Below are positions 25,233-40,351 of a DNA stretch of 64,000 nucleotides, in pieces. Every line of letters starts with the position of its first letter. Position 1 is the first letter of the stretch. The notes below the pieces were generated by a model that ran no database searches, was not told where the DNA came from, and saw nothing but the letters and a program-made list of their open reading frames with translations. A program made the position numbers and the translations under genes. This stretch comes from Rhodohalobacter sp. SW132 (GTDB lineage Bacteria; Bacteroidota; Rhodothermia; Balneolales; Balneolaceae), in contig NZ_QUOK01000001.1 in the NCBI RefSeq assembly GCF_003390325.1, forward strand, positions 744,001-808,000, read 5' to 3'.

Positions 25233-28200
25233 ATGACAAACAAACTCATACGCTTTTTTCTCGAAAATAAACTCATCGCACTGCTGCTGTTTTTAGCACT
25301 TGCAGGCTGGGGAATTGCCACGGCTCCGTTCGACTGGGATATCGACTTCATTCCGCGTGATCCCGTTCCGGTGGATGCCATCCCCGATATCGGCGACAAT
25401 CAGCAGATCGTATTTACCGAATGGGGAGGGCGATCCCCGCAGGATATTGAGGATCAGATTACCTATCCGCTGACCACCGAACTGCTTGGATTGCCGGGCG
25501 TCCGCACTGTTCGAAGTAACTCTATGTTTGGCTTCTCATCCATCAACATCATTTTTGAAGATGATATTGAGTTCTACTGGAGTCGGTCGCGTATTCTTGA
25601 AAAACTGAATGCGCTACCCGGTGGTACGCTGCCTGAAGGTGTGCAGCCCGCACTGGGCCCCGACGCCACAGCGTTGGGGCAGATTTTCTGGTACACGCTT
25701 GAGGGATATGACTCTGATGGTAACCCAACCGGCGGATGGGATCCGCAGGAGCTTCGTTCGATCCAGGATTTCCAGGTGCGCTATGCACTCTCGGCCGTGG
25801 ATGGCGTGGCTGAGGTGGCCAGCATCGGTGGGTTTGTAAAAGAGTACCAGGTGGATATCGATCCGGTGGCGATGCGGGAGTTTGGCGTAAATGTGAACCA
25901 GATTGCCGATGCCGTTCGAAAGTCGAATCTGGATGTGGGGGCCCGTACGATTGAAATGAATCGTGCTGAGTATGTGGTTCGCGGACTCGGGTATATGGAA
26001 TCACTTGAAGACCTGGAAGAAAGCGTGGTTGCCATGATGGAGAACACGCCGGTCCGTATTAAAGATGTGGCGCATGTTGCGATGGGTCCCGCACAACGCC
26101 GTGGTGCTCTCGACAAAGCGGGCGCCGAAGCGGTGGGCGGAGTGATTGTTGCCCGTCATGGTGAAAATCCGCTTGAGGTGATCAACAATGTAAAAGAGGA
26201 AATTGAAAATATTGCGACAGGGCTGCCTACCAAAGAGCTGGCTGACGGTTCCACCTCGCAGGTTAAAATCGTGCCGTTTTACGATCGTACCGGTTTGATC
26301 TATGAAACGCTCGGCACGCTGGAGGAGGCTCTTTCACTTCAAATTCTGATCACCATCATCGTCATTATCATTATGGTGATGCATCTTCGCACCTCGTTTG
26401 TTATATCGGCACTGCTCCCACTCGCTGTGCTGATGAGCTTCATCCTGATGAAATATGTCGGTGTGGATGCAAACGTGGTGGCCCTGGCCGGGATCGCCAT
26501 CTCGATAGGTACGGTGGTGGATATGGGGATTATCCTCACCGAGAATATGCTCAAACATATCGAGGAGAAAAATCCGGGTGAGGATCTGCTCGAAACGATC
26601 TACCGTGCCACCGCCGAGGTGAGTCCTGCCGTGATTACCGCGCTCATGACCACCATCGTCAGCTTTCTGCCCGTATTTATGCTGGAAGCGCAGGAAGGAC
26701 GGATGTTCGGCCCGCTGGCGTGGACCAAGACCTTTATTCTGATCGCTGCCCTTGTGATCGTCATCACCCTGATTCCTGCATTTTCTCACTGGCTCTTTTC
26801 GCAGAAAATCAGCAAACGTCGGTGGAAAATTTTCTGGAACGGTGTGATGATCGTCGCCGGACTGATTATCGCCATAACCCTCTACGGCTGGGGCGGTTTG
26901 ATTCTGATTGCGCTCGGCATCAACAACCTGGTGTCGGTCTATCGTGAGGAGTATCAGGCCTGGTCACCGTGGGTGAATAACATCATTATTCTGCTGGGTG
27001 TTGCCTGGCTGCTGGCGGGACAGTGGCTCCCGCTCGGCCCGGAAAACCCGGTTACGTTCAGCCTGATTTTTATACTGTTGCTGGTTGGCCTGATATTCGG
27101 CCTCTTCTGGCTATTCATGAAATATTACGAGCAAATTCTCGACTGGTCGCTCCGAAATAAAGCAGCGTTTCTTGCTCTACCGATTCTTATTCTGCTCTTT
27201 GGGCTAATGAGCTGGCGCGGGTTTGATGCCACATTTAGTTATGTGTCTAATGGATTTAATGCAGTCGGTTTCGAGATTGAGGAGACATCATTTTGGTCTG
27301 CCGCTGATGAACGGTTTCCCGGACTGGGTCAGGAGTTCATGCCCACGCTGGACGAAGGCTCCTTCCTGCTGATGCCCACCGCCATGCCCCACGCCGGGAT
27401 GGAGGAGTCCCTGCAGATGATGCGTGAGATGGATATGCGTATTGCATCCATTCCGGAAGTGGAAACCGTGGTTGGAAAAATCGGCCGTGTAGAATCGGCA
27501 CTTGATCCGGCTCCGATCTCGATGTTTGAGACTGTGATCCAGTATAAGAGCGAATATAAAACGAATGAGCGCGGCCAGCGGGTTCGGTTCAAAACAGAAA
27601 ACGGGGAGTTCGTTCGGGATGATAGTGGCGATCTGATACCCGATCGAAGTGGCCGGTATTACCGTCAGTGGCGCGATCACATTCAGAATCAGGATGATAT
27701 CTGGACAGAAATTCTGCACGCCTCTGATGTGCCGGGAGTTACCTCTGCCCCGAAACTGCAGCCGATTGAAACGCGGTTGATTATGCTTCAGACCGGAATG
27801 CGTGCCAACATGGGTGTTCGAATCAGCGGGCCCAACCTTGATGTAATCGATGAATTTGCCACTGCGCTCGAGCCGGTGATCCGGGAAGTGGATGGGGTTC
27901 GTCCCGCCTCTGTTTTTGCCGACCGCGTCGTCGGGAAGCCCTACATCGAAATCGATATTGATCGCCGAGAAATTGGCCGGCATGGACTCACCATTCAGGA
28001 TGTGCAGCAGGTGATCAGCACGGCTATCGGCGGACAAATGCTCGGCATGACTGTCGAAGGCCGCGAGCGATATCCGCTGCGGGTTCGCTATGCGCGGGAG
28101 TACAGAAACTCCCCTGAGATGATGGAGCGCGTACTCGTGCCGGCGCCGGACGGCAGCCAGATTCCGCTTGGACAGCTTGCCGAGATCCGTTTCGAAACAG

Positions 28201-29000
28201 GCCCGATGAACATCCGGAGCGAAAATACATTTCTGAGCGCCTACGTCACGTTCGACGGACAGCCCGGCCATTCGCCGGTCGACCTGGTGAATCAGGTACG
28301 TGAGTATCTGGATCATAACATCAGTGAAGGATCTCTAAACGTTCCCGATGGTATCAGTTACACGTTTGAAGGTGAATTCAAAAACCAGCAGCGGGCAACC
28401 GAGCGGTTATCGGTTGTGCTGCCCATCACCCTGCTGATCATCTTTCTGATCATCTACTTCCAGTTCCGGTCAGCGCCTACAACGATGATCGTCTTTTCCG
28501 GAATAATTCTGGTCTGGGCGGGCGGATTTATCCTGCTCTGGCTCTATGGCCAGAACTGGTTCTTCAACTTCTCGATTCTGGGCGTGGAGATCCGCGATTT
28601 CTTCCAGATGGGAGTGATTAATATGAGTGTGGCGGTCTGGGTTGGATTCCTGGCTCTTTTCGGAATCGCGGTGGATAACGGCGTGGTGATGGCCACCTAC
28701 CTCGATCAGCTATTTGAACGAAAAAAACCGCAAGGTCGCGAAGGTATTTACGCCACAGCCATCGAAGCCGGAATGCGCAGGGTGCGTCCCTGCCTGATGA
28801 CCACCGGCACCACCCTGCTGGCCCTGCTGCCAATCCTGACCTCACCCGGCAAAGGATCCGAGATCATGATCCCCATGGCGATCCCGATCTTTGGCGGGAT
28901 GCTGATCCAGGTATTGAGCCTGCTGCTTGTGCCACTGCTCTACGCGATGTGGAAAGAGTTTGAGATGAGAAATGTGAATGAATTGGAGGAGAAAATATGA
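25233..29000 (+). CDS. CusA/CzcA family heavy-metal RND efflux pump
   Basis: Inner-membrane proton-driven trimeric pump, 1255 aa. Hallmarks are the N-terminal FFLENKLIALLLFLALAGWG, the porter region (RSNSMFGFSSINIIFEDDIE) and the TM4 motif (GIAISIGTVVDMGIILTENM) with its charged proton-relay residues. The second half repeats the fold (GIAVDNGVVMATYLDQLFE). Typical CusA/CzcA are about 1030-1060 aa. The extra length lies mainly near residues 525-680, where three or four added membrane spans sit between the two halves. It works with the TolC and CusB-like proteins encoded next. The Cu/Ag assignment rests on the neighbours. It overlaps a short upstream start of the next frame by 4 bp. Confidence 0.94.
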   Translation: MTNKLIRFFLENKLIALLLFLALAGWGIATAPFDWDIDFIPRDPVPVDAIPDIGDNQQIVFTEWGGRSPQDIEDQITYPLTTELLGLPGVRTVRSNSMFGFSSINIIFEDDIEFYWSRSRILEKLNALPGGTLPEGVQPALGPDATALGQIFWYTLEGYDSDGNPTGGWDPQELRSIQDFQVRYALSAVDGVAEVASIGGFVKEYQVDIDPVAMREFGVNVNQIADAVRKSNLDVGARTIEMNRAEYVVRGLGYMESLEDLEESVVAMMENTPVRIKDVAHVAMGPAQRRGALDKAGAEAVGGVIVARHGENPLEVINNVKEEIENIATGLPTKELADGSTSQVKIVPFYDRTGLIYETLGTLEEALSLQILITIIVIIIMVMHLRTSFVISALLPLAVLMSFILMKYVGVDANVVALAGIAISIGTVVDMGIILTENMLKHIEEKNPGEDLLETIYRATAEVSPAVITALMTTIVSFLPVFMLEAQEGRMFGPLAWTKTFILIAALVIVITLIPAFSHWLFSQKISKRRWKIFWNGVMIVAGLIIAITLYGWGGLILIALGINNLVSVYREEYQAWSPWVNNIIILLGVAWLLAGQWLPLGPENPVTFSLIFILLLVGLIFGLFWLFMKYYEQILDWSLRNKAAFLALPILILLFGLMSWRGFDATFSYVSNGFNAVGFEIEETSFWSAADERFPGLGQEFMPTLDEGSFLLMPTAMPHAGMEESLQMMREMDMRIASIPEVETVVGKIGRVESALDPAPISMFETVIQYKSEYKTNERGQRVRFKTENGEFVRDDSGDLIPDRSGRYYRQWRDHIQNQDDIWTEILHASDVPGVTSAPKLQPIETRLIMLQTGMRANMGVRISGPNLDVIDEFATALEPVIREVDGVRPASVFADRVVGKPYIEIDIDRREIGRHGLTIQDVQQVISTAIGGQMLGMTVEGRERYPLRVRYAREYRNSPEMMERVLVPAPDGSQIPLGQLAEIRFETGPMNIRSENTFLSAYVTFDGQPGHSPVDLVNQVREYLDHNISEGSLNVPDGISYTFEGEFKNQQRATERLSVVLPITLLIIFLIIYFQFRSAPTTMIVFSGIILVWAGGFILLWLYGQNWFFNFSILGVEIRDFFQMGVINMSVAVWVGFLALFGIAVDNGVVMATYLDQLFERKKPQGREGIYATAIEAGMRRVRPCLMTTGTTLLALLPILTSPGKGSEIMIPMAIPIFGGMLIQVLSLLLVPLLYAMWKEFEMRNVNELEEKI

Positions 29001-29031
29001 GTATTAAGTATCAAGTAGTGAGTAGTGAGAA

Positions 29032-29216
29032 ATCTCCCCTCTTGGGAGGGGACAGACGATGGAGCGTTCAGCGGAATCGTCAGGGGTGGGTTGATGGGGC
29101 GTTGAGTGACGGTACTGCCCGTTCAGGGCGCCTTACCCCCGCAGAACACACCCCTCGCTCACCGAATCGCGCGTCGCGCTTTCGGTTTCGCATATCCCCT
29201 CTCAAGAGGGGATTTT
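29032..29216. repeat. Long hairpin repeat, G-rich class (copy 2), upstream of tolC
   Basis: Ends CTCCCCTCTTGGGAGGGG and TCCCCTCTCAAGAGGGGA, inner GGGGTGGGTTGATGGGG against CCCCCGCAGAACACACCCC. It is open in one frame from 28997, so a naive gene call for the TolC protein would begin with about 74 residues of translated repeat. Confidence 0.7.
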
Positions 29217-29218
29217 TC

Positions 29219-30619
29219 ATGGCCGTTTTAATATTGGTTGCCATTCTTATGGGAGCTTTCACGACCACGGTTTATGCACAGGGTACAGAATCATCGACAA
29301 ACTCAGTGAACACCCCTCAGACAGAATCGGGAACTACCGATTCTGTCATCTCCCCTCCCCGAGGTGTCGGGACCAGGAAAGCACTGGCAGGGGAGACTGC
29401 TTACCCCCAACTCGAAAATTACATCCAGATCGCAATCGAGGAAAACCCCGAACTCCGTTCTCTGCACCATCTTTATGAAGCAGAAAAGGAGCGTGCACGG
29501 GAAGTGGGTGTGCTGCCTGATCCGGAGCTGAATATCATGTACGATTTCAACCCGATGATGTCGGAATCACAGCTGGGACGCTTTTCGGTGTCGGCGATGC
29601 AGATGTTTCCGTGGTTTGGATCGCTTGGGACCATGCGTGATGCGCAGCGGGCTATGGCGGAAGCTGACCGGGCGCAGATTGATGTTCGTCAGCTCGAGAT
29701 ACTTCGCGACCTTCAAATCGCCTGGTTTGAAATCGCTGATGTTGAGCAGCAGATACGAATCGTGAATGATCAGATTGAGCTGGTTCGGGAGCTGGAAACC
29801 CTTGTGGAGATCCGGTACGAAACCGGCGGTGCTGCACAGGCGGATATTCTGCGAATCCAGATGGAGGAAGCGCGACTCCAGAACCGCATTGAAAACCTGG
29901 AAGATCAGCTTATACCACTGAAGGCCGGCTTTAACGAATTTCTGAACCGGCCGGCTGATTCCGATGTGGAAACTACGGAGCAGACCGAAACGCAAGAGGT
30001 GCTCTACAGTGATGATCAAATCCACCGGATGGTGCGTGCGGAGAATCCCCGGTTTGACGGGATTGAATCCAGAAGTAACGCGCTCGATCAGCAGCAGCGG
30101 GTTGCTCAGCTTAGCGGACGCCCATCCTTCGGGCTGGGCCTGGAAGTGATGGGCCGCGATTTCGGTCCGATGTCGATGTTTCCGGACGCCCGGGAGAGCT
30201 TTATCGGCATGGCAACGGTTCGTCTGCCCATTTTTCGGTCCCGTACAAATTCACAACAGCAGCAGATCACCAGCCGAAAGCGGGCTCTAGACTCTGAACT
30301 CCTTCAGACCGAAAACCGGCTATCAAGCGAAGTGGAATCGGCATTGGAAGAGCTGAGAAAATCAGAACGAAATTTACGACTGCTGGATGAAGAGCTCGTC
30401 CCCCGCGCACAACAGGCCCTCGACATTCTCACTGATGAGTACACCGTAGGCCGTGCACGGTTTGATGAACTCCTGCAAATTCAGCGCGAACTGCTCGATT
30501 TCGAGATTGAGCGGATTGAAGCCGTTGTGGGGCAAAACAAAGCCGTTGTACGGATTATAAGTTTGATTGGGAATAGTCCCCCTTTGAAGGGGGAAAGCGC
30601 CACAGGCGCAGGGGGATGA
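29219..30619 (+). CDS. TolC family outer-membrane efflux protein
   Basis: Outer-membrane channel of the tripartite pump, 466 aa from the ATG at 29219. This start directly precedes a good signal peptide (MAVLILVAILMGAFTTTVYA) and excludes the upstream repeat. Two OEP domains of long helices follow (YIQIAIEENPELRSLHHLYE; QMFPWFGSLGTMRDAQRAMA; LREL-type heptads to residue 450). Mature residues 25-58 (SPPRGVGTRKALAGE) and the last 13 residues (PPLKGESATGAGG) look like translated repeat sequence, so elements appear to have invaded both ends of the gene in frame. It lies between the pump and adaptor genes. Confidence 0.88.
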   Translation: MAVLILVAILMGAFTTTVYAQGTESSTNSVNTPQTESGTTDSVISPPRGVGTRKALAGETAYPQLENYIQIAIEENPELRSLHHLYEAEKERAREVGVLPDPELNIMYDFNPMMSESQLGRFSVSAMQMFPWFGSLGTMRDAQRAMAEADRAQIDVRQLEILRDLQIAWFEIADVEQQIRIVNDQIELVRELETLVEIRYETGGAAQADILRIQMEEARLQNRIENLEDQLIPLKAGFNEFLNRPADSDVETTEQTETQEVLYSDDQIHRMVRAENPRFDGIESRSNALDQQQRVAQLSGRPSFGLGLEVMGRDFGPMSMFPDARESFIGMATVRLPIFRSRTNSQQQQITSRKRALDSELLQTENRLSSEVESALEELRKSERNLRLLDEELVPRAQQALDILTDEYTVGRARFDELLQIQRELLDFEIERIEAVVGQNKAVVRIISLIGNSPPLKGESATGAGG

Positions 30620-30717
30620 TGTGGGGGAAACAGGCTTAAATAAAATCTTGAATTGGATCAACGGCCAGTGATCATCCCCCGGCTCACTCCGTTCGCCACC
30701 CCCTTCGAAGGGGGACT
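30575..30717. repeat. Long hairpin repeat (copy 3) overlapping the tolC 3' end
   Basis: Ends AGTCCCCCTTTGAAGGGGG and CCCCCTTCGAAGGGGGACT are inverted. The left end encodes the last residues of the TolC protein, and the right end stops 27 bp before the adaptor ATG. A transcript would form a 140-nt hairpin between tolC and the adaptor gene. Confidence 0.7.
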
Positions 30718-30743
30718 TTTTATCACAGTTAAACAATAGCATT

Positions 30744-32543
30744 ATGAACATCACAAAAACACAATTACTTACAGGCGCCGGACTCCTCATCACCGGGCTG
30801 TTGCTTGGATGGCTGATCTTCGGCGGATCCCATGATCATGACCCGCATGCCGGCCACGATCATGAAGTGACCACAGAAAACGGCGAAGAGGTGTGGACCT
30901 GCTCCATGCACCCATCCGTTCGCGAAGACGGTCCCGGCTCCTGCCCGATCTGCGGGATGGACCTGATTCCGGCATCGTCCGAAGAGCGTGAGGATGACTA
31001 CAGCATGGTGATGACTGAAGCCTCCATGCAGCTCGCCAATATCCAGGCCACGCCGGTGATTCGTGAGCGCCCCAAACGTGAACTGCACCTGCCGGGACGT
31101 GTGGAGATTGATGAGCGGCGAATAAGCTATGTGACGGCCCACTTTGCTGGACGAATTCAGGATGTGGAGATCAATTTCACGGGTGCACCGATACGTGAGG
31201 GTGATGTGATGGCCACCATCTACTCACCGGAACTGGTTTCCGCTCAGCGTGAGCTGCTGGAAGCGGTGAAGGTGAAGGATCGAAATCCGGGCCTGTATGA
31301 ATCGGCCGTGCGAAAATTCAGGCTGTGGGAGTTTACCGATGAGCAGATTCAGGAGATTGTTGACCGCGGTGAAGTGATGCGGAATATGGAGATTCTCTCT
31401 CCGGTAGATGGATTTGTTATGAAAAGAAATGTGGTGGATGAGCAGCATGTCACAGAGGGATCCGTCATCTACGAAGTGGCGAACCTCGATCAGCTCTGGG
31501 TAACATTTGATGCCTACGAGGAGGATATGGGTTGGCTGCAGGAAGGATCAGAGATCGAATTCAGAAGCCGATCGAACCCGGGAAGCAGTTATACCGCCAG
31601 CGTGGATTATATCGACCCGACTTTCAACCCGCAAAAACGGACTATCCGGGTGCGGGCAGATGTGGAAAATGCTGATCACACCCTGCGTCCGGAGATGATT
31701 GTTCGGGGTGTGATTCAATCCGAAATGCAGGAAGAAAAGCTGCTGGTTCCAGCTTCGGCTGTACTCTGGACCGGTCCGCGATCCCTTGTTTACGTGAAAG
31801 ACACATCAGCCGACACCCCGAGATTTGAAGTGAAAGAGGTTGAGCTTGGCAGCCGAACCGGAGATTATTATATCATTGAAGAAGGCCTTGAATCCGGCCA
31901 GGAAGTTGTTTTCAATGGCGCATTCCGGATCGATAGTGAATTTCAGCTTGCCGACCGCTTCAGCATGATGAACCGTGAGCCCGGAACGGGAGCAGTACCC
32001 GGTGGTCATGATCATGGGCAGATGGGTGGTGATGATATGGATGACCATGATGAAATGGAGACGCAGCAGGAGACAGATGCCCACGATCATACAGGTGCGA
32101 TAGATGGGGCTACTGATGATTTCCGGGAGGATTTCAAGGTACTTCTCACTCATTACCTGGATGGAAAAGAGGCATTATTCGAATCTGATATGGATGGAGT
32201 AAGTACGGCCTTTCAACAAGCCGCTGAAGAACTTGAATCGATCGGATTACACCGTATGCAGGGCGATGCTCATATGCGCTGGATGGAGCAGTATGAAGCG
32301 ATTGAAGGGCATTTGAATCACATTTTAGAAGCCGAAGATATGGAGGTCCGGCGTGAAGGTTTTGCTTTGCTATCGCATGTACTCATTGAGGCTGTCAATA
32401 ATTACGGTATTCCCGGTATGGTTTACCATCAGTACTGCCCGATGGAGGATGCGAACTGGCTGAGCCGTGATGAGCAGATTGAGAATCCATATGCACCCGA
32501 TACAATGCCGAGCTGCGGAGAGGTGATTGAACGAATTGAATAA
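30744..32543 (+). CDS. CusB-type periplasmic adaptor with heavy-metal-binding and DUF3347 domains
   Basis: Membrane-fusion protein linking pump and channel, 599 aa. N-terminal anchor (LLTGAGLLITGLLLGWLIFG), then a His-rich stretch (HDHDPHAGHDHE) and the short heavy-metal-binding domain (WTCSMHPSVREDGPGSCPIC) near 50-75. The barrel-sandwich/HlyD core is at about 115-410 (APIREGDVMATIYSPELVSA; ILSPVDGFVMKRNVVDEQHV). A second His/Asp-rich linker precedes a C-terminal DUF3347 domain (about 460-599), with VYHQYCPMEDANWLSRDEQI and NPYAPDTMPSCGEVIERIE. The metal-binding ends support Cu/Ag specificity. The C-terminal domain also occurs alone in the next gene. Confidence 0.93.
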   Translation: MNITKTQLLTGAGLLITGLLLGWLIFGGSHDHDPHAGHDHEVTTENGEEVWTCSMHPSVREDGPGSCPICGMDLIPASSEEREDDYSMVMTEASMQLANIQATPVIRERPKRELHLPGRVEIDERRISYVTAHFAGRIQDVEINFTGAPIREGDVMATIYSPELVSAQRELLEAVKVKDRNPGLYESAVRKFRLWEFTDEQIQEIVDRGEVMRNMEILSPVDGFVMKRNVVDEQHVTEGSVIYEVANLDQLWVTFDAYEEDMGWLQEGSEIEFRSRSNPGSSYTASVDYIDPTFNPQKRTIRVRADVENADHTLRPEMIVRGVIQSEMQEEKLLVPASAVLWTGPRSLVYVKDTSADTPRFEVKEVELGSRTGDYYIIEEGLESGQEVVFNGAFRIDSEFQLADRFSMMNREPGTGAVPGGHDHGQMGGDDMDDHDEMETQQETDAHDHTGAIDGATDDFREDFKVLLTHYLDGKEALFESDMDGVSTAFQQAAEELESIGLHRMQGDAHMRWMEQYEAIEGHLNHILEAEDMEVRREGFALLSHVLIEAVNNYGIPGMVYHQYCPMEDANWLSRDEQIENPYAPDTMPSCGEVIERIE

Positions 32544-32558
32544 TTATAACAAACAAAG

Positions 32559-32591
32559 AGACCTCCAGGATTTTTGAAACCTTGGAGGTCT
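32559..32591. repeat. ACCTCCAAGG-class hairpin
   Basis: AGACCTCCAGG and CCTTGGAGGTCT form an imperfect stem between the adaptor and DUF3347 genes. Same family as 33215-33247, 36414-36468 and 62661-62690. It may attenuate or stabilise the operon mRNA. Confidence 0.6.
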
Positions 32592-32631
32592 GATCCGAAA
32601 AAATTAATTGAAAAATAAAACAGATAAACCC

Positions 32632-33207
32632 ATGAAAAACTTAATCATAACATCTATATCAACCTTGGTTATAGCGGCACTATTTATGCAGCCCTCTATA
32701 GCACAAGATCATGCAGGGCATCATGACGAATCAGAAAAAGTGGAACAGTTTAATGATGTACCGGAAGAGTTTCAGGCAAGCTTTACCGAAGTATTTGAAG
32801 CTTATATTACCGGGAAGGATGCACTTCTGGAATCAGATTTAGAAGCTTCAATTACCAGCTTTGAGGAATTTATCAATAAGCTGGAAGCTATAGGAGAGCA
32901 CGGGCTTTCCGGTGATGGACACATGGCCTGGATGGAATCCTATTCGAAACTGGAACGACATGTATCTACTCTTACAGCTGCCAATAATATGGATGAGGCC
33001 CGAATTGCCTTTCAACATCTTTCTGTAGAGATAACCGAAGCTGTTAAAACATTTGGAATCAATGGAGTGGTGTATCATCAATATTGCCCGATGGCTAATG
33101 ACAATGATGGAGCAGTCTGGCTAAGTAGCCGGGAAGAGGTGCAAAATCCATATTCACCTGAAACAATGCCGGGCTGTGGACAGGTGATTGAAAGAATTGA
33201 GTCGTAG
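32632..33207 (+). CDS. Stand-alone DUF3347 periplasmic protein
   Basis: 191 aa from the ATG at 32632; a TTG 24 bp earlier is less likely because the signal peptide (LIITSISTLVIAALFMQPSI) begins at this ATG. The mature protein is one four-helix DUF3347 domain, homologous along its length to the C-terminus of the adaptor. The conserved part is VVYHQYCPMANDNDGAVWLS with NPYSPETMPGCGQVIERIE. DUF3347 proteins are tied to copper efflux; the Cys, Met and His residues of the YHQxCPM motif suggest metal binding. Probably a periplasmic metal carrier handing ions to the pump (inference). Confidence 0.88.
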   Translation: MKNLIITSISTLVIAALFMQPSIAQDHAGHHDESEKVEQFNDVPEEFQASFTEVFEAYITGKDALLESDLEASITSFEEFINKLEAIGEHGLSGDGHMAWMESYSKLERHVSTLTAANNMDEARIAFQHLSVEITEAVKTFGINGVVYHQYCPMANDNDGAVWLSSREEVQNPYSPETMPGCGQVIERIES

Positions 33208-33214
33208 ATGATAA

Positions 33215-33247
33215 AACCCTCCAAGGGTTTGGAACCCTTGGAGGGTT
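33215..33247. repeat. Perfect 15-bp-arm hairpin (ACCTCCAAGG class)
   Basis: AACCCTCCAAGGGTT-TGG-AACCCTTGGAGGGTT: perfect arms around a 3-nt loop, 8 bp after the DUF3347 stop. No T-run follows, so it is a poor terminator but a strong RNA barrier. Confidence 0.75.
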
Positions 33248-33283
33248 GGTAAAAACTACATAATTCAAAAAAAGGTGATCAAC

Positions 33284-33622
33284 ATGAAAGAAATCAAAGC
33301 GATGATTCGGCCTGAGATGTTTGAAAATGTTTATCAAGAACTGAGATCAGCAGGATACTGCTGTTTGACAGTGTATCATGGTGAGGGTATCGGGCGGCAT
33401 GGAGATCCTGACAACCTTAATGCAACCCTGGAATTTCCCTTTCTTCATTCAAAAATTGTGAAAATTGAGATTGTTGCAGCTGATGAGCAGCAGGATGAGG
33501 TTGTTAATATCATCCGGCAGGCAGCCTGTACGAACAATAAAGGAGACGGGATCATCTACAGTTCAGAGATTGATGCAGCAATGAGTATAAGAACCGGTGA
33601 AACAGGAGAAGTAGTGCTGTAA
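33284..33622 (+). CDS. PII-like signalling protein of metal-efflux operons (PII-NG type)
   Basis: 112 aa from the ATG at 33284, which has AAGGTGAT upstream; a GTG nine bases earlier is possible. The fold signature is present: KEIKAMIRPEMFENVYQELR at the start, KIVKIEIVAADEQQDEVVNI, and a C-terminal GDGIIYSSEIDAAMSIRTGE that matches the PII B- and C-loop region. The T-loop region reads VYHGEGIGRHGDPDNLNATL and lacks the uridylylated Tyr context of GlnB/GlnK. PII-NG proteins are known to be encoded beside RND metal pumps; the ligand and target are not settled. Cys-Cys at residues 23-24 is unusual and could sense metal. Confidence 0.87.
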   Translation: MKEIKAMIRPEMFENVYQELRSAGYCCLTVYHGEGIGRHGDPDNLNATLEFPFLHSKIVKIEIVAADEQQDEVVNIIRQAACTNNKGDGIIYSSEIDAAMSIRTGETGEVVL

Positions 33623-33736
33623 TCCTGCCAAAAATATTACACATTAACCATTTCTGGGAATAACGCTAAAGGCTTGTAAAAAAAGCTCTTTGCAATGAGC
33701 CCGGAGGTCTATTCACATATAATACGGAGACAAATT

Positions 33737-35809
33737 ATGAAAGATCACAATCATCATTCACAGGATGAACACAGTCATGAGCATGATCATGACAATCACT
33801 CACACGAGGATCATGATCACGGTGATCACGATCATGATGGCCACTCCCATCACGAGCACCACAAGCAGATGGTGCAGGATTTTAAATTCCGTTTTTGGTG
33901 GGTATTAGCTCTTACGATTCCGATTTTGGCCCTCTCCCCAATGATTCAGGATTTCCTGGGTGTAGATTGGCGGTTTGCAGGTGACACCTGGATATTAACC
34001 GCCCTTTCAACCGTTGTCTTTTTCTTTGGTGGATGGCCGTTTTTAACAGGGCTGGTTGATGAACTGAAGAAAAAACAGCCGGGGATGATGACCCTGATCG
34101 GTTTGGCAATCTCAGTGGCTTACATCTATAGCGTGTTCGTTGTGTTTGGCCTTGATGGGCATCTGCTGTTTTGGGAATTGTCCACTCTTGTAGCCATTAT
34201 GCTACTGGGGCACTGGATTGAGATGCGATCGGTGATGAGTGCTTCTGCTGCACTGGAAAAGCTGGCAGAACTGCTTCCCGGTAAAGCACATCGTGTTAAA
34301 GAGGACGGTTCTACCGAAGATGTTCCGGTTGAGGAGCTGAAAGTAGATGATCATATCCTGATTAAACCCGGAGAGAAAATTCCGGCCGACGGAATCGTGA
34401 TCGAAGGTAAAACCAATGTCAATGAGGCGATGCTTACCGGAGAATCTCTGCCGGTAGAGAAAAATGTAGATGATGAAGTGATAGGTGGAGCAATCAACGA
34501 AGAGGGGTCCATCACCGTAAAAATTCACAAAACCGGCGATGAATCCTTTCTTTCGCAGGTGATTGATTTGGTTCGACAGGCGCAGGAGAGCAAATCGCGT
34601 ACGCAGGACCTGGCCAACCGGGCGGCTTTTTGGCTAACAATCGTGGCTATAGGCGGTGGTCTTCTCACATTCTTTGCATGGACACTCTTTACAGGACAGG
34701 ATCTCAGTTTTGCCATTAACCGAACCGTAACGGTGATGGTAATCGCCTGTCCACACGCACTTGGCCTGGCCATTCCCCTGGTTGTTGCCGTTTCAACAAC
34801 ATTGGCAGCTACGAACGGATTTTTGATTCGTAACCGTACGGCATTTGAAGAAGCGCGAAATCTGGGAGCCGTCATTTTTGATAAAACCGGAACCCTGACC
34901 GAAGGTACGTTCACGGTAACCGATATCCTGAATTTCAACGAAGAAATTAGTGATGAGGAGCTTCTGAATTATGCAGCGGCTGTTGAGGTCAACTCTGAAC
35001 ATCCGATTGCCAGAGGCATCCTTGAAAAAGCCGGTGAGACATGGAAAGTGGAGGACTTCAATTCCATAACCGGAAAAGGTGTGGAAGGGAATGTGAAAGG
35101 TAAATCGGTGAAGGTGGTCAGCCCGGGCTATGTTCGGGATGAAAACATGGAATATCCAAAGGACCAAGTAGAGGATATCTCATCGCAGGGTAAAACAGTT
35201 GTTTTTGTGGTTCTTGATGATGAACTGCATGGAGCTATTGCACTCGGTGACAAGATTCGACCGGAGTCAAGAGACGCGATTGACCAGCTTCACGAAATGG
35301 GAATTCAATGCGTGATGCTAACCGGAGATAATCGTCAGACTGCCGAATATGTGGCCAAAGAACTTGGCATCGACCAGGTGTTTGCCGAGGTGCTGCCGGA
35401 TGAAAAAGCTGAAAAAGTGAAAGAGGTACAAGAGCAGGGAATGAAGGTGGCGATGACCGGTGACGGTGTAAATGATGCACCTGCACTTGCCACCGCGGAT
35501 GTGGGAATTGCTATTGGCGCCGGATCAGATGTAGCCGTGGAGACCGGAGACATCGTGCTGGTTCGGGACAATCCGATGGATGTAGCTCATGTGATTCAGC
35601 TTTCCAAAGCAACGTATAGCAAAATGGTTCAAAACCTGTTCTGGGCCACTGGTTATAACGTGGTTGCCATACCACTGGCTGCGGGTGTGCTATTTGTCTG
35701 GGGCATTATTCTGAGCCCGGCGATGGGCGCTGTTTTGATGTCGCTCAGTACAGTAATCGTTGCGATTAATGCACGGTTTTTGAAGATGGAGGGAAGTGGT
35801 ACTGAGTAG
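33737..35809 (+). CDS. CPH-type P1B copper-translocating ATPase
   Basis: Inner-membrane ATP-driven metal exporter, 690 aa from the ATG at 33737; the frame extends 42 bp upstream, but the His-rich domain starts here. Residues 1-45 are a His/Asp tract (HSHEHDHDNHSHEDHDHGDH) in place of a CxxC domain. Eight membrane spans are expected. The TM6 motif is Cys338-Pro-His (VIACPHALGLAIP), which marks the CopB-like P1B-3 group, linked to copper and silver. Phosphorylation site Asp382 (IFDKTGTLTEG), TGES at the actuator (MLTGESLPVEK), HP at SEHPIARG and the hinge TGDGVNDAPALA. It complements the RND pump by moving metal out of the cytoplasm. Confidence 0.93.
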   Translation: MKDHNHHSQDEHSHEHDHDNHSHEDHDHGDHDHDGHSHHEHHKQMVQDFKFRFWWVLALTIPILALSPMIQDFLGVDWRFAGDTWILTALSTVVFFFGGWPFLTGLVDELKKKQPGMMTLIGLAISVAYIYSVFVVFGLDGHLLFWELSTLVAIMLLGHWIEMRSVMSASAALEKLAELLPGKAHRVKEDGSTEDVPVEELKVDDHILIKPGEKIPADGIVIEGKTNVNEAMLTGESLPVEKNVDDEVIGGAINEEGSITVKIHKTGDESFLSQVIDLVRQAQESKSRTQDLANRAAFWLTIVAIGGGLLTFFAWTLFTGQDLSFAINRTVTVMVIACPHALGLAIPLVVAVSTTLAATNGFLIRNRTAFEEARNLGAVIFDKTGTLTEGTFTVTDILNFNEEISDEELLNYAAAVEVNSEHPIARGILEKAGETWKVEDFNSITGKGVEGNVKGKSVKVVSPGYVRDENMEYPKDQVEDISSQGKTVVFVVLDDELHGAIALGDKIRPESRDAIDQLHEMGIQCVMLTGDNRQTAEYVAKELGIDQVFAEVLPDEKAEKVKEVQEQGMKVAMTGDGVNDAPALATADVGIAIGAGSDVAVETGDIVLVRDNPMDVAHVIQLSKATYSKMVQNLFWATGYNVVAIPLAAGVLFVWGIILSPAMGAVLMSLSTVIVAINARFLKMEGSGTE

Positions 35810-35920
35810 AAGGTATTGAGTATTGAGCACTCCCCTCTCGAGAGGGAAAATCGGAAAACTCAACTGTATTAAAAAAACTAAAAAATCAAAATGTACAAAC
35901 CTAAAACAAGAGGTAACACA

Positions 35921-36400
35921 ATGAAGAATTTTATCTTAACAACAATCGCACTGTTCACCATGATTCTATTTACGAATCCGGTGACAGCACAGGATCATCA
36001 ACATCACGAGAAACATGAACAGATGATGCAAATGATGGAAGATTCAGAGATGCGAGCCATGATGATGGAACGTATCGCCGAAAATCCTGAAATGCACCGG
36101 GAAATGATGAAGCATATGAGAAAGGCCATGATGGAAAATATGCAGCAGATGGATCACTCTGAGATGATGGGCCAAATGCGCCAACGCATGAATGACCCGG
36201 AGATGAAGGAACGGATGCAGGAGCACATGAAAATGATGCAATCCATGATGGAAGGAGAAGTGATGGATCACTCGATGATGAGGGAAAAAATGCAGGACTC
36301 AGAGATGATGAGAATGCATATGATGTGCATGCAAATAATGCACGGAGATGATATGGACGGTGGCGACACTGAAGCCGGTGATCATGAAGAGCATCATTAG
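35921..36400 (+). CDS. Met/His-rich periplasmic protein
   Basis: 159 aa from the ATG at 35921, preceded by AGAGGT; the frame extends 30 bp further but without a better start. Signal peptide LTTIALFTMILFTNPVTAQ. The rest is almost wholly helical repeats rich in Met, His and Glu (MMQMMEDSEMRAMMMERIAE, MLMEEmission-free MREKMQ-type units such as MQEHMKMMQSMMEGEVMDHS) and a final GDHEEHH. Methionine-rich clusters are known Cu(I)/Ag(I) ligands in periplasmic chaperones. It is likely a metal sponge or chaperone for the neighbouring pumps; there is no family name I can assign with certainty. Confidence 0.75.
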   Translation: MKNFILTTIALFTMILFTNPVTAQDHQHHEKHEQMMQMMEDSEMRAMMMERIAENPEMHREMMKHMRKAMMENMQQMDHSEMMGQMRQRMNDPEMKERMQEHMKMMQSMMEGEVMDHSMMREKMQDSEMMRMHMMCMQIMHGDDMDGGDTEAGDHEEHH

Positions 36401-36413
36401 ATAATTATTTTAA

Positions 36414-36468
36414 AGACCTCCAAGGTTTCCCGCAAAGCGATCCCTATGGGGCAAAACCTTGGAGGTCT
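36414..36468. repeat. Hairpin with 15-bp arms (ACCTCCAAGG class)
   Basis: AGACCTCCAAGGTTT and AAACCTTGGAGGTCT are perfect complements around a 25-nt loop, between the Met-rich gene and the SHOCT gene. An ATG within it (36446) is in frame with the SHOCT gene but translates repeat, so it is not taken as the start. Confidence 0.7.
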
Positions 36469-36487
36469 GAATCTAACCCCCGACTCT

Positions 36488-36694
36488 ATGGAATCATTGA
36501 ACGAAATCTTAACCAACTGGTATCCGGTTTTTTTCATTCTGAGTGCCGTGATTGCACTCACTGTTTGGGCATGGGCAAGCAAAAAGAAAGCCCGGCTGGA
36601 TATAGATAAGGCGAATAAACTGATTTTGAAACGTCGGTATCGAAATGGAGAGATTTCCAAAAAAGAGTATGAAACTCGAATCGGTGACACATAA
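36488..36694 (+). CDS. Small membrane protein with SHOCT domain
   Basis: 68 aa. The ATG at 36488 is chosen because the earlier in-frame ATG lies in the hairpin repeat. One membrane span (YPVFFILSAVIALTVWAWA), then a charged SHOCT module (LILKRRYRNGEISKKEYETR). SHOCT domains are short oligomerisation modules, common in small proteins of copper operons. It is 20 bp ahead of the GAPDH gene, so the two are probably co-transcribed. Confidence 0.7.
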   Translation: MESLNEILTNWYPVFFILSAVIALTVWAWASKKKARLDIDKANKLILKRRYRNGEISKKEYETRIGDT

Positions 36695-36714
36695 CACTAA
36701 ATCAATCTGAGATT

Positions 36715-37743
36715 ATGAAAAAAATCAACGTAGCAGTAAACGGATATGGAGTGATTGGAAAAAGGATCGCTGAAGCATTAGATCTGCAAGACGATATGGA
36801 ATTGATTGGTATTGGGGATGTGGCTGCCGACTGGCGGATAAAAGTTGCAGCCCAAAAATATAGTGTATTTGCCAATACAGAAGAAGGCCGCAACGCGATG
36901 GCTCAGGAGAACATTCAGGTAGCCGGTGATCTTGATGATCTGCTTGATGGCGCCGATGTGGTTGTGGACTGTGCTCCCAAAAAATTCGGCGCACAAAATG
37001 CTGAAAAATATCGGCAAGCAGGTGTAAAATTTATCGTGCAGGGTGGAGAAAAGCATCAAACAACAGGCCATTCCTTCACCGCCGAATCTAACTACACCTC
37101 GGCTTTAGGCAGGGAGTCGACGCGTATTGTCTCTTGTAATACGACTTCCATCGTGCGTACGCTAAGTACGTTAAAACGTGCAGATTTATTAGAAAAAGCA
37201 CGCGGTACGCTTCTGCGACGAGCCACCGATCCATGGGAAAGTCACAAAAACGGAATTATGAATACAATGGTACCCGAACCGGAGATTCCCAGTCACCAGG
37301 GGCCGGATGCTCAAAGTGTGGATCCTGATCTGGATGTAGTAACCGCAGCTGTGAAAGTGCCGCAAACACTTTCCCACCTACACTACTGGACTGTGCAATT
37401 GACCAGGGAAGCATCCAAAGAAGAAGTTCTGGAAGCGTTTGCGAGCTCTACCCGAACAGCATTCATAAAAATGAGCGATGAACTTTCTGCTAATAATGCT
37501 GTCAAAGAGTTGATGCTCGACCTTGGCCGGCCGCACGGAGATATGTACGAAGTAGCCATCTGGGAAGACATGCTTAAAGTAGAGGGAGATGAGCTGTACT
37601 ACGCTTATTTGGTAGATAATCAAGCCATCGTTATTCCCGAAACCATCGATGCCATACGTGCATTAACGGAAGCTGAATCCGATCCCAAAAAATCGATTGA
37701 AAGGACAAATCAGTCACTGGGTGTCAGGCAACGGTTTGTATAG
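36715..37743 (+). CDS. Archaeal-type (type II) glyceraldehyde-3-phosphate dehydrogenase
   Basis: Cytoplasmic NAD(P)-dependent enzyme, 342 aa. N-terminal nucleotide-binding motif VAVNGYGVIGKRIAEAL; catalytic Cys141 in VSCNTTSIVRTL; then RRATDPWESHKNGIMNT and LGRPHGDMYEVAIWED, which follow archaeal GAPDH rather than the bacterial GapA pattern (ASCTTNC). The type II form is rare in bacteria. Here it sits between small metal-island genes with gaps of 20 and 11 bp, so it is very probably in their operon. Glycolytic GAPDH is a known copper target through its active-site Cys. A spare enzyme made under copper stress is a reasonable hypothesis, unproven. Confidence 0.87.
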   Translation: MKKINVAVNGYGVIGKRIAEALDLQDDMELIGIGDVAADWRIKVAAQKYSVFANTEEGRNAMAQENIQVAGDLDDLLDGADVVVDCAPKKFGAQNAEKYRQAGVKFIVQGGEKHQTTGHSFTAESNYTSALGRESTRIVSCNTTSIVRTLSTLKRADLLEKARGTLLRRATDPWESHKNGIMNTMVPEPEIPSHQGPDAQSVDPDLDVVTAAVKVPQTLSHLHYWTVQLTREASKEEVLEAFASSTRTAFIKMSDELSANNAVKELMLDLGRPHGDMYEVAIWEDMLKVEGDELYYAYLVDNQAIVIPETIDAIRALTEAESDPKKSIERTNQSLGVRQRFV

Positions 37744-37754
37744 AGAACAAAATT

Positions 37755-38240
37755 ATGAGTAAACACACATTTTGGATGATCATCGGATGCGGGCTTCCGC
37801 TGTTGCTGCTATTTCTTGCACCTGTTATCGGGCTTAGCAGTAATATCGCCATTTTCATTTTTATCATTGCTATGTTCGCCTGTCATCTGCTGATGGCGAA
37901 AAACATCACGGACATGACACTAACAAGCCAAATCAACACAAATCATAGAGGAGAACCCATGAAAAAATTAAACATTAAAAAACTCGGATTGGCCTTCGGT
38001 TCTACGACAGCGATCCTGTATCTGGGGTGTGTTCTGTTAATGATCATCGTAGGACAGGAAGGAACTGTTGCCTTCTTTAATACACTCCTGCATGGTTTCG
38101 ATACATCAGCCATTATCCGGATGGATATCCCCTGGTGGGAAGCTGTGATGGGAATCGTTCAGATATTTATTTTGGGATGGTTAACGGGAGCACTTGTAGC
38201 GGCAATTTATAATGTTGGATCAGATCCAAATATAGAATGA
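37755..38240 (+). CDS. Fused small membrane protein; C-terminal half DUF5676-like
   Basis: 161 aa with two unlike halves. Residues 1-60 have two hydrophobic spans (FWMIIGCGLPLLLLFLAPVI; IAIFIFIIAMFACHLLMA), like the tiny membrane proteins next to copper pumps. Residues 69-161 start MKKLNIKKLGLAFGSTTAIL and continue IPWWEAVMGIVQIFILGWLT, matching the DUF5676 membrane family, which is normally a separate protein of about 90 aa. An internal ATG at 37959 has a strong AGAGGAG 5 bp upstream, so the second half may also be translated alone. It overlaps the next gene by 4 bp (ATGA). Confidence 0.7.
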   Translation: MSKHTFWMIIGCGLPLLLLFLAPVIGLSSNIAIFIFIIAMFACHLLMAKNITDMTLTSQINTNHRGEPMKKLNIKKLGLAFGSTTAILYLGCVLLMIIVGQEGTVAFFNTLLHGFDTSAIIRMDIPWWEAVMGIVQIFILGWLTGALVAAIYNVGSDPNIE

Positions 38241-38443
38241 GTCTTATCAATAAATCAGAAATTACATGTCCTAATTGCGGTTATAAGAAAACTGAGGTGA
38301 TGCCAGTGGATGCATGTCAGTTTTTCTATGAATGTGAATCATGCCATACCATTCTGAAACCTGAAAAAGGCGACTGCTGTGTGTTTTGCAGTTATGGAAC
38401 GGTTCCTTGTCCGCCGGTGCAGAAATCGAAAGGCTGTTGCTGA
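38237..38443 (+). CDS. Cys-rich GDCCVxC-type small protein
   Basis: 68 aa, cytoplasmic. Two zinc-ribbon-like pairs (TCPNCG, YECESCH) precede KPEKGDCCVFCSYGTVPCPP, the GDCCVxC signature, and a C-terminal GCC. Such proteins occur in heavy-metal and mercury resistance clusters and probably bind metal; no activity is known. It starts within the stop of the upstream membrane-protein gene, suggesting coupled translation. Confidence 0.8.
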   Translation: MSLINKSEITCPNCGYKKTEVMPVDACQFFYECESCHTILKPEKGDCCVFCSYGTVPCPPVQKSKGCC

Positions 38444-38521
38444 TCAAGCCTAAGTCCAAATTTAATCCGGCCTGATTACTTCTAAAAATCCAATTAATCA
38501 ATAACCATTACACTATTAACC

Positions 38522-39577
38522 ATGTTACCTGACTGGATACCCAACATACACCCGTTCGTTGTTCACTTTCCCATTGCTCTGCTTGTCATAGCCGTTCTGT
38601 TTGATCTGGCCCGACTCTGGTTCAGGGAACAGAGCTGGCTGCAAAATGCAGTGATTACACTATATACACTGGGAACCGTTGGTCTGATCGCCGCATTTCT
38701 TTCCGGCCGGCAGGCGGTGGAGACCGTCTCCGTTACCGGTGATGCCGTTCCGGTTGTCACCTCCCACGAAGACTGGGCACTCTACACACTGATCTTTTTC
38801 GGAATATTCACCGCCATCCGCCTCTGGACCTGGTGGAAGGAACTGGAAAAAGGCTGGGTGCTTCCCGCACTGATTGTGCCTGCTTTGATTGGTACAGGAA
38901 TGCTATGGTACACGGGTGAACAGGGAGCCAAACTGGTATATAAGCACGGTGTGGCTGTGGGCGAAATTGACCGGCTTGGTCAGCAGATTGAAGAGCTTGA
39001 GCAGCGACTTGCCGGATTCCGGGAAGAAGCCGGGCCTGAAATGCGGGATGACGGCTCATGGATCTGGAGAATCGGTGCCGGTGCAGACCAGGTAATCACT
39101 GAATCTTTCAGCACCGAAGGTGTGGAAACTGTTGACGCTTCAACCGGACGGGATGATGGACGTATTCACCTCGAACTATCAGCCACAGATGAAAAGGCGT
39201 TTCTTTATACCGAAGGCGATCTGAGTGCTGTCGATGGACGTGCTGAAGTTAATCTGACTGATTTCAATGGCGAATTTCTGCTGATCCATCACTTTACCGA
39301 TAGCGAGAGTTATCAGTATATCCGAATCTCAGGATCTGAACTTCAGCAAGGCCAAATAGTAAATGGATCAGATAATGTTCTCGGTGCAGGCCGGGTTGAA
39401 ACCGGTGGATGGACAACGTTTAGGGTAACTGCTTCTGGTCAACATTTTTACGGGTATCAAAACGGAAATACCATCGTCCATACCCATGCTGATGAGATGG
39501 AAGAAGGAAGAACTGGCTTTGCATTTACCGGTTCCGGAAATATTAAAATTCGGCTGATTGAATTTACTGCGCTTTAA
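38522..39577 (+). CDS. DUF2231 membrane protein with C-terminal LamG-like domain
   Basis: 351 aa. N-terminal four-helix DUF2231 membrane domain with the family motif HPFVVHFPIALLV, then further spans to about residue 140 (ALIVPALIGTGMLWYTGEQG). A short coiled coil follows (IDRLGQQIEELEQRLAGFRE), then a beta-sandwich of concanavalin/DUF1080-like type (FNGEFLLIHHFTDSESYQYI; GWTTFRVTASGQHFYGYQNG). The conserved His residues of DUF2231 could bind haem or metal; its role is unknown. It is the last clear gene of the metal island. Confidence 0.8.
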   Translation: MLPDWIPNIHPFVVHFPIALLVIAVLFDLARLWFREQSWLQNAVITLYTLGTVGLIAAFLSGRQAVETVSVTGDAVPVVTSHEDWALYTLIFFGIFTAIRLWTWWKELEKGWVLPALIVPALIGTGMLWYTGEQGAKLVYKHGVAVGEIDRLGQQIEELEQRLAGFREEAGPEMRDDGSWIWRIGAGADQVITESFSTEGVETVDASTGRDDGRIHLELSATDEKAFLYTEGDLSAVDGRAEVNLTDFNGEFLLIHHFTDSESYQYIRISGSELQQGQIVNGSDNVLGAGRVETGGWTTFRVTASGQHFYGYQNGNTIVHTHADEMEEGRTGFAFTGSGNIKIRLIEFTAL

Positions 39578-39679
39578 CTCAGGAATCTATCTGCATCTAC
39601 AAAAGTCTGTTTTCGAAATACTATGAATGTATAGAGGGGCATAATTGTACTATTGGTAAATCAAACAAAATCATAAATT

Positions 39680-40351
39680 ATGTCCTATACAGTCAAAATT
39701 AAAGACATTCAGAATATTACGCACGATGTAAAACAGCTAACGTTTGAAAAGCCGGGTGGATATGAATTTTCACCGGGGCAGGCTACAGAAGTGGCGATTG
39801 ATAAAGAAGGATGGCGTGATGAGAAACGCCCATTTACTTTTACTTCCCTTCCCAAAGATGATTACCTGGAGTTTGTGATTAAAATCTATCCGGAACACGA
39901 CGGGGTGACGGAACAAATTGGAAAACTGGAACCCGGGGATAACCTGATGATCGGTGATGCGTGGGGTACGATTCAATATGATGGTGAAGGTGTTTTTCTT
40001 GCCGGAGGTGCCGGCGTGACGCCATTCATCGCCATACTCCGTGATCTGCACGAAAAAAGTGAAATTGGAGATAATCACCTCATTTTTTCAAATAAATCAC
40101 CTAAAGATGTAATTCTGAAAGAAGAGTTCGAATCGATACTGGGTATCCAATTTACCAGTCTGGTAACCGATGAATTCTCCAAAGATGACCTGTTCCTGGA
40201 TGGCTATATTGATAAAGATTTTCTCAAAAAACAGATTACCGATTTCGAACAGCCGTTTTATGTTTGTGGACCTAAAGAATTCAATGAAGCGATGATGACC
40301 TACCTGAAAGAACTTGGTGCGGATCCCGATGCTCTTGTGTTTGAGGAGTGA
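39680..40351 (+). CDS. Ferredoxin-NADP reductase family FAD/NAD(P) oxidoreductase
   Basis: 223 aa, cytoplasmic. The FAD-binding barrel motif RPFTFTSLP occupies the place of the usual RxYS. The NAD(P)-binding half has VFLAGGAGVTPFIAILRDL and ends with FYVCGPKEFNEAMMTYLKEL. No iron-sulfur domain is attached, so it resembles flavodoxin or ferredoxin reductases and stand-alone reductase subunits. It stands alone, with a strong bidirectional hairpin 46 bp downstream. The electron acceptor is unknown. Confidence 0.88.
   Translation: MSYTVKIKDIQNITHDVKQLTFEKPGGYEFSPGQATEVAIDKEGWRDEKRPFTFTSLPKDDYLEFVIKIYPEHDGVTEQIGKLEPGDNLMIGDAWGTIQYDGEGVFLAGGAGVTPFIAILRDLHEKSEIGDNHLIFSNKSPKDVILKEEFESILGIQFTSLVTDEFSKDDLFLDGYIDKDFLKKQITDFEQPFYVCGPKEFNEAMMTYLKELGADPDALVFEE

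Follow-up and report, generated by a model that had tools for sequence, protein, structure and literature searches.

A type II glyceraldehyde-3-phosphate dehydrogenase linked to bacterial metal-resistance islands, a candidate second GAPDH under copper stress

Copper resistance in bacteria, as it is known so far, proceeds by export, oxidation or binding of the metal. Regarding the targets of copper within the cell, the glyceraldehyde-3-phosphate dehydrogenase (GAPDH) GapA is inhibited in both Staphylococcus aureus and Streptococcus pyogenes, while the alternative enzyme GapN is not (PMC6350627, PMC7733945), which supports the premise, put forward earlier for the gene considered here, that GAPDH is a target of this metal. 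PRPP synthetase (Prs) is likewise inhibited by copper (PMC10249872), and the structure of E. coli GapA with silver bound has been solved (6io4). As for the type II GAPDHs, they are treated as rare in bacteria and one bacterial representative was without activity when assayed (PMC6543838), an enzyme that has the broad family name in common with the clade described below. On the type II enzyme of metal islands itself, nothing was found in the literature searched.

The stretch of DNA analysed here, hereafter the window, covers 64,000 nucleotides of the genome of Rhodohalobacter sp. SW132. The first-pass annotation had read in it a GAPDH of type II pattern, tightly packed between small genes of a copper-resistance island. 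The SCNTTS motif (residues 140-145) as well as the coordinates, strand and reading frame of this gene all proved exact; the intergenic gaps, namely 20 bp after the SHOCT gene and 11 bp before the DUF2933/DUF5676 gene, were correct when re-read from the gene coordinates, and the island setting is borne out by the presence of CusA, TolC-like, CusB-like and CopB-type genes on the strand of the GAPDH gene (Table 1). Two curated models agree on the family, the protein scoring 449 bits with PRK04207 (NCBIfam, type II GAPDH; cut-off of 185) and 320 bits with TIGR01546 (cut-off of 233). The predicted model of the protein (mean pLDDT of 88.7) superimposes on four archaeal enzymes, which are its closest solved structures (1cf2, 2czc, 2yyy and 1b7g) and rank first with a TM-score of 0.91-0.92, vs. 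about 0.7 for type I enzymes. Neither Cys141 nor His221 varies among the sequences of the island clade or among these four archaeal enzymes. By family and predicted fold, the window gene is a type II GAPDH, and the catalytic residues assigned to it from the alignment are those of type II GAPDH. No foreign signature was found in the base composition of the gene.

Table 1. Position and basis of assignment of the genes forming the copper block around the type II GAPDH gene of the window
Feature	Position	Strand	Basis and remarks
CusA-like RND metal efflux pump	25233..29000	+	Sequence reading; similarity to CusA/CzcA of relatives
TolC/CusC-like outer-membrane efflux protein	28997..30619	+	Sequence and position
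CusB-like periplasmic adaptor with heavy-metal-binding segment and DUF3347-like tail	30744..32543	+	Sequence and position
DUF3347 exported protein	32608..33207	+	Pfam DUF3347, 53 bits
P-II-like protein	33275..33622	+	Pfam P-II, 60 bits
CopB-type (P1B-3) copper ATPase	33695..35809	+	TIGR01511, 643 bits; CPH motif; His-rich N-terminus
Met/His-rich exported protein, probable metal binder	35891..36400	+	Composition; kept beside copper genes of relatives
Small SHOCT-domain membrane protein	36446..36694	+	Pfam SHOCT, E 3e-4, under the curated cut-off
Type II (archaeal-type) GAPDH	36715..37743	+	342 aa, ATG to stop, intact; Cys141, His221, Asp35
Membrane protein with DUF2933-like N-terminus and DUF5676	37755..38240	+	Pfam DUF5676, 83 bits
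GDCCVxC domain protein, small and Cys-rich	38237..38443	+	NCBIfam NF041374, 105 bits

All genes from 25233 to 40351 lie on the same strand, running from CusA to GAPDH in the order of Table 1 and continuing 3' of the latter with the DUF2933/DUF5676 and GDCCVxC proteins, a DUF2231 protein and an FAD/NAD-binding reductase, beyond which thiamine genes are found. Because of this close spacing, co-transcription of the GAPDH gene with the genes of the block is likely; no metal regulator was recognised among the genes of the window block and a promoter scan returned fewer sites there than in shuffled sequences. Rhodohalobacter halophilus (L003) has the same gene order from the P-II-like gene to the GDCCVxC gene. 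A SHOCT gene stands directly 5' of GAPDH in this species and other Balneolaceae (L003, L006, L007 and L009). The Met/His-rich protein gave no family match in the NCBIfam or Pfam scans. Besides, the CusB-like adaptor and the DUF3347 protein carry near-identical Cys-containing ends (YHQYCPM...TMPxCGxVIERIE), a common tail that suggests the duplication of a metal-binding module, and the DUF2933-like and DUF5676 segments, which are fused in the window, correspond to two separate genes in L007. An empty-site comparison based on thiM and the upstream oxidoreductase offered little to compare, thiM itself being rare in the family.

Beyond the window, relatives of the type II gene were collected from 80 loci in species-representative genomes and from 37 plasmid records, 17 of which were typed as conjugative and 9 as mobilizable, which places the gene on chromosomes as well as, often, on conjugative plasmids. 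For comparison, 64 non-redundant type II loci having 8 kb or more of flanking sequence were set against 35 control loci of type I GAPDH; of the controls, 34 belong to genomes in which the type II gene is also present and one belongs to the genome of the window. P1B ATPases, which were recounted by motif because the first count (43/64) could include pumps of other kinds, were present in 44/64 type II loci vs. 0/35 type I loci (Fisher 7e-13), these loci not being independent events since several roseobacters exhibit near-identical spacing. ATPases with a CPC or CPH motif followed the same pattern (29/64 vs. 0/35; 1.6e-7), as did multicopper oxidases (16/64 vs. 0/35). At the level of whole genomes, and among the matches listed, an ATPase of copper type (above the TIGR01511 cut-off) lies at most 12 kb from the type II gene in 32 of the 36 analysed and within this distance of the best-scoring type I gene in 0 of 36, where uniform placement would predict 0.92. 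The linkage of type II GAPDH with metal ATPases, which was encountered in six phyla, is strong and far beyond chance; no earlier report of it was found in the open-licence literature, hence a weak sign of novelty. Candidate metal regulators were present too, CsoR-like genes in 5/64 and MerR/CueR-like genes in 7/64 type II loci, with none in the 35 control loci; in Nesterenkonia (L077) a CsoR-type gene stands directly upstream of the type II GAPDH, and in L087, an Agrobacterium plasmid, the gene for a metal-sensitive regulator faces away from the pair made up of an ICMT-like gene and GAPDH, with cueR on the other side. Ten of the 64 type II loci have no metal marker within reach. Of note, the ATPase beside the type II GAPDH has a CPD motif in 15 of the 64 loci (L030:16530-18959 and 14 others), mostly in Alphaproteobacteria and also in some Actinomycetota, which is a caveat on the identity of the metal.

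Metabolic isozymes are also found on these islands, at least one marker for a carbon or nucleotide enzyme being present in 41/64 type II loci vs. 5/35 controls. A gene for Prs occurs in 14/64 type II loci and in 0/35 type I loci, an archaeal-type AMP/thymidine phosphorylase in 12/64, a hydroxyacid dehydrogenase in 9/64, and phosphoketolase, phosphofructokinase (PFK), alpha-glucan phosphorylase and arginine deiminase in 7/64 each. The locus of Fodinibius roseus (L009), for instance, comprises in this order CopB, PFK, SHOCT, GAPDH, an ICMT-like protein, an ATP-cone protein, a metallo-beta-lactamase exonuclease, an AMP phosphorylase and Prs. The last four, with an archaeal-type AMP phosphorylase and an atypical Prs, form a block that recurs (L009:11881-16550, L014, L015 and L020) and perhaps constitutes a mobile module for PRPP/AMP salvage. 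On three plasmids, namely p1-T1 of Acidovorax sp. T1 (L089), L092 and L085, many duplicates of central-metabolism genes surround the type II GAPDH, including acetate kinase, PEP synthase, enolase, Prs, thymidine phosphorylase and the arginine deiminase pathway.

In its host, the island enzyme is a second GAPDH. A type I GAPDH with the motif SCTTNC is encoded on contig C9 of the same genome, and one above cut-off occurs in 36/36 relatives with a type II gene, which rules out that the window enzyme would be the only GAPDH of the genome. Searching the control loci with the pattern SC[TS]TN[CA] retrieved 35 type I sequences, all of which have SCTTNC, whereas the SCNTT(S) of the island enzyme holds a single Cys at this place. 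Low Cys content as a special adaptation of the island enzyme is a weak idea, since the number is comparably small (1-4) in archaeal type II enzymes. Metal tolerance is not guaranteed either, because the island enzyme retains the Cys and the His through which GapA binds metal, and Cys86 is present in 68 of the 70 sequences of the clade. Regarding the cofactor, NADP is the one described for archaeal type II enzymes, and in Rossmann folds an Asp at the end of the second strand favours NAD where a basic residue favours NADP. In the predicted model, Asp35 is the last residue of this strand; it is invariant in the island clade, all four archaeal enzymes carrying Lys at this position, so that the basic residue of NADP-type archaeal GAPDHs is replaced and NAD rather than NADP is predicted. 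The island clade has probably switched to NAD, and NAD use fits the replacement of a glycolytic GapA. Arg41, Trp174, Gln195 and Lys214 are further invariant residues specific to the clade.

We propose, with a confidence that stands about midway between acceptance and rejection, that the mobile type II GAPDH of metal islands acts as a second GAPDH when type I GapA is inactivated. The clade would move with metal-resistance islands; copper or another thiol-binding metal would inactivate the housekeeping GapA, and the type II enzyme, co-expressed with the efflux genes, would then supply a second GAPDH activity, NAD-dependent as Asp35 leads one to expect, and rescue lower glycolysis. A lower metal sensitivity of this enzyme may be expected because its active site is without the second Cys of the type I SCTTNC motif. 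The principle would be one of target replacement, by analogy the metal counterpart of the drug-insensitive spare enzymes of antibiotic resistance, and Prs would do likewise on some islands for the second published copper target. This idea comes from GAPDH and Prs, both inhibited by copper in cells, being both found on islands, a coincidence that was noticed after the fact and not predicted. More tentatively, islands in many phyla may carry replacements for copper-poisoned steps (type II GAPDH, an atypical Prs and possibly more) as a general mobile arm of resistance that would stand alongside efflux, oxidation and binding. As a hypothesis, the function of copper backup for the type II GAPDH is well supported by comparative genomics. 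It would give this clade of bacterial type II enzymes a function and, if true, would support GAPDH (and Prs) as decisive targets of copper in living cells.

Among other explanations, a doubtful one still deserving consideration is that these islands are mobile persistence modules, which would sustain sugar and energy metabolism in anoxic or energy-limited cells as the low-oxygen-activated (lxa) locus of Burkholderia cenocepacia does; the metal pumps would then be carried along or be of use in that condition. PFK, phosphoketolase, alpha-glucan phosphorylase, PEP synthase, arginine deiminase, PPK2 and the metallo-beta-lactamase exonuclease are indeed present on many islands, and the lxa proteins include a phosphofructokinase, a metallo-beta-lactamase protein, universal stress proteins (Usp) and a heat shock protein (PMC6127331), so that PFK, the metallo-beta-lactamase exonuclease and Usp are common to this locus and the larger islands. 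However, the terms glyceraldehyde, copper and phosphoketolase are absent from the lxa paper (PMC6127331), where GAPDH is not named, and an enzyme of this set was encountered in 3/11 loci of Balneolota vs. 10/11 for a P1B ATPase. For the window, such a module is less likely because its island has copper genes and, among the island genes examined, none of that cargo. It is unlikely, more clearly so, that the enzyme serves mainly gluconeogenesis or redox balance (e.g. NADPH), or acts on another aldehyde, its place in metal islands then reflecting general stress metabolism; the NADP use of archaeal type II enzymes would agree with this, the cofactor of the island enzyme being a prediction, but the invariant Asp35 in place of the archaeal Lys argues for NAD and the catalytic residues match those of type II GAPDH.

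The type II gene is patchily distributed, 16 of 394 genomes of the phylum carrying it above cut-off. In a maximum-likelihood tree, 70 non-redundant island sequences form one bacterial clade (support 100/100) with members from Balneolota, Bacteroidota, Acidobacteriota, Pseudomonadota, Actinomycetota, Deinococcota and one metagenome-assembled genome (MAG) labelled Spirochaetaceae, i.e. about seven phyla, some of the MAG labels being possibly wrong. The stem joining this clade to the archaeal side of the tree, which consists of four PDB sequences with the haloarchaeal ones absent, has a length of about 2 changes per column. The sequences closest to the window gene come from other Balneolota. The first-pass annotation had named a transfer from archaea as worth testing; as a recent event this is unsupported because of the single bacterial clade on its long stem and of the Balneolota as nearest kin. 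The tree places any archaeal transfer as old, before the spread of the clade, and indicates that the window gene came from bacteria. Within the clade, about 100 of the 342 columns are invariant across phyla and the catalytic residues are intact; the linkage persists in distant subclades whose neighbouring genes differ. This conservation and this maintained linkage argue for selection in the metal-island setting, against a gene taken up and spread by metal islands without aiding resistance, a neutral hitchhiking which is quite improbable even though varied cargo is plentiful on such islands.

Lastly, a partnership with ArsJ, in which GAPDH makes the 1-arseno-3-phosphoglycerate exported by this transporter for arsenate resistance, recalls the present locus by a GAPDH gene in a resistance setting, beside a transporter in the known arrangement, but is rejected for the genomes examined and can be considered extremely improbable, since ArsJ is absent from the window's genome, all 7 ArsJ genes above cut-off in the 36 relatives (6 genomes) directly adjoin a type I and not the type II GAPDH of the window's kind, and the MFS genes found next to type II genes look like Tet-type pumps and not like ArsJ.

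Compared with the archaeal type II GAPDHs (TIGR01546; 1cf2, 2czc, 2yyy and 1b7g), the island enzyme has the family, fold, catalytic Cys/His and overall length in common, but is 37-41% identical to them, belongs to its own long-stemmed bacterial clade and, unlike them, is always a second GAPDH beside a type I enzyme. With the type II GAPDH of P. thermosuccinogenes (PMC6543838), the island enzymes have the broad family name in common. The same holds for the type II GAPDHs of a Bradyrhizobium (L154) and a Streptomyces (L155) plasmid, which are however 32-34% identical, on very long branches and with no metal genes in the stretches viewed; there, the distant GAPDH gene lies beside or near prs (L154:3989-9000 and L155:3004-5065) in surroundings resembling biosynthetic clusters, one of which includes a gene of the PEP-mutase family; this may reflect another kind of GAPDH-Prs partnership, or self-resistance. 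The copper resistance islands with CusABC and CopB are a further related system, in that efflux genes and small metal proteins likewise surround the window GAPDH. In the literature searched, a metabolic isozyme is no recognised part of their modes of action; if the copper-backup function proposed here is true, a spare, metal-tolerant enzyme would add to these islands a principle of resistance so far familiar from antibiotics.
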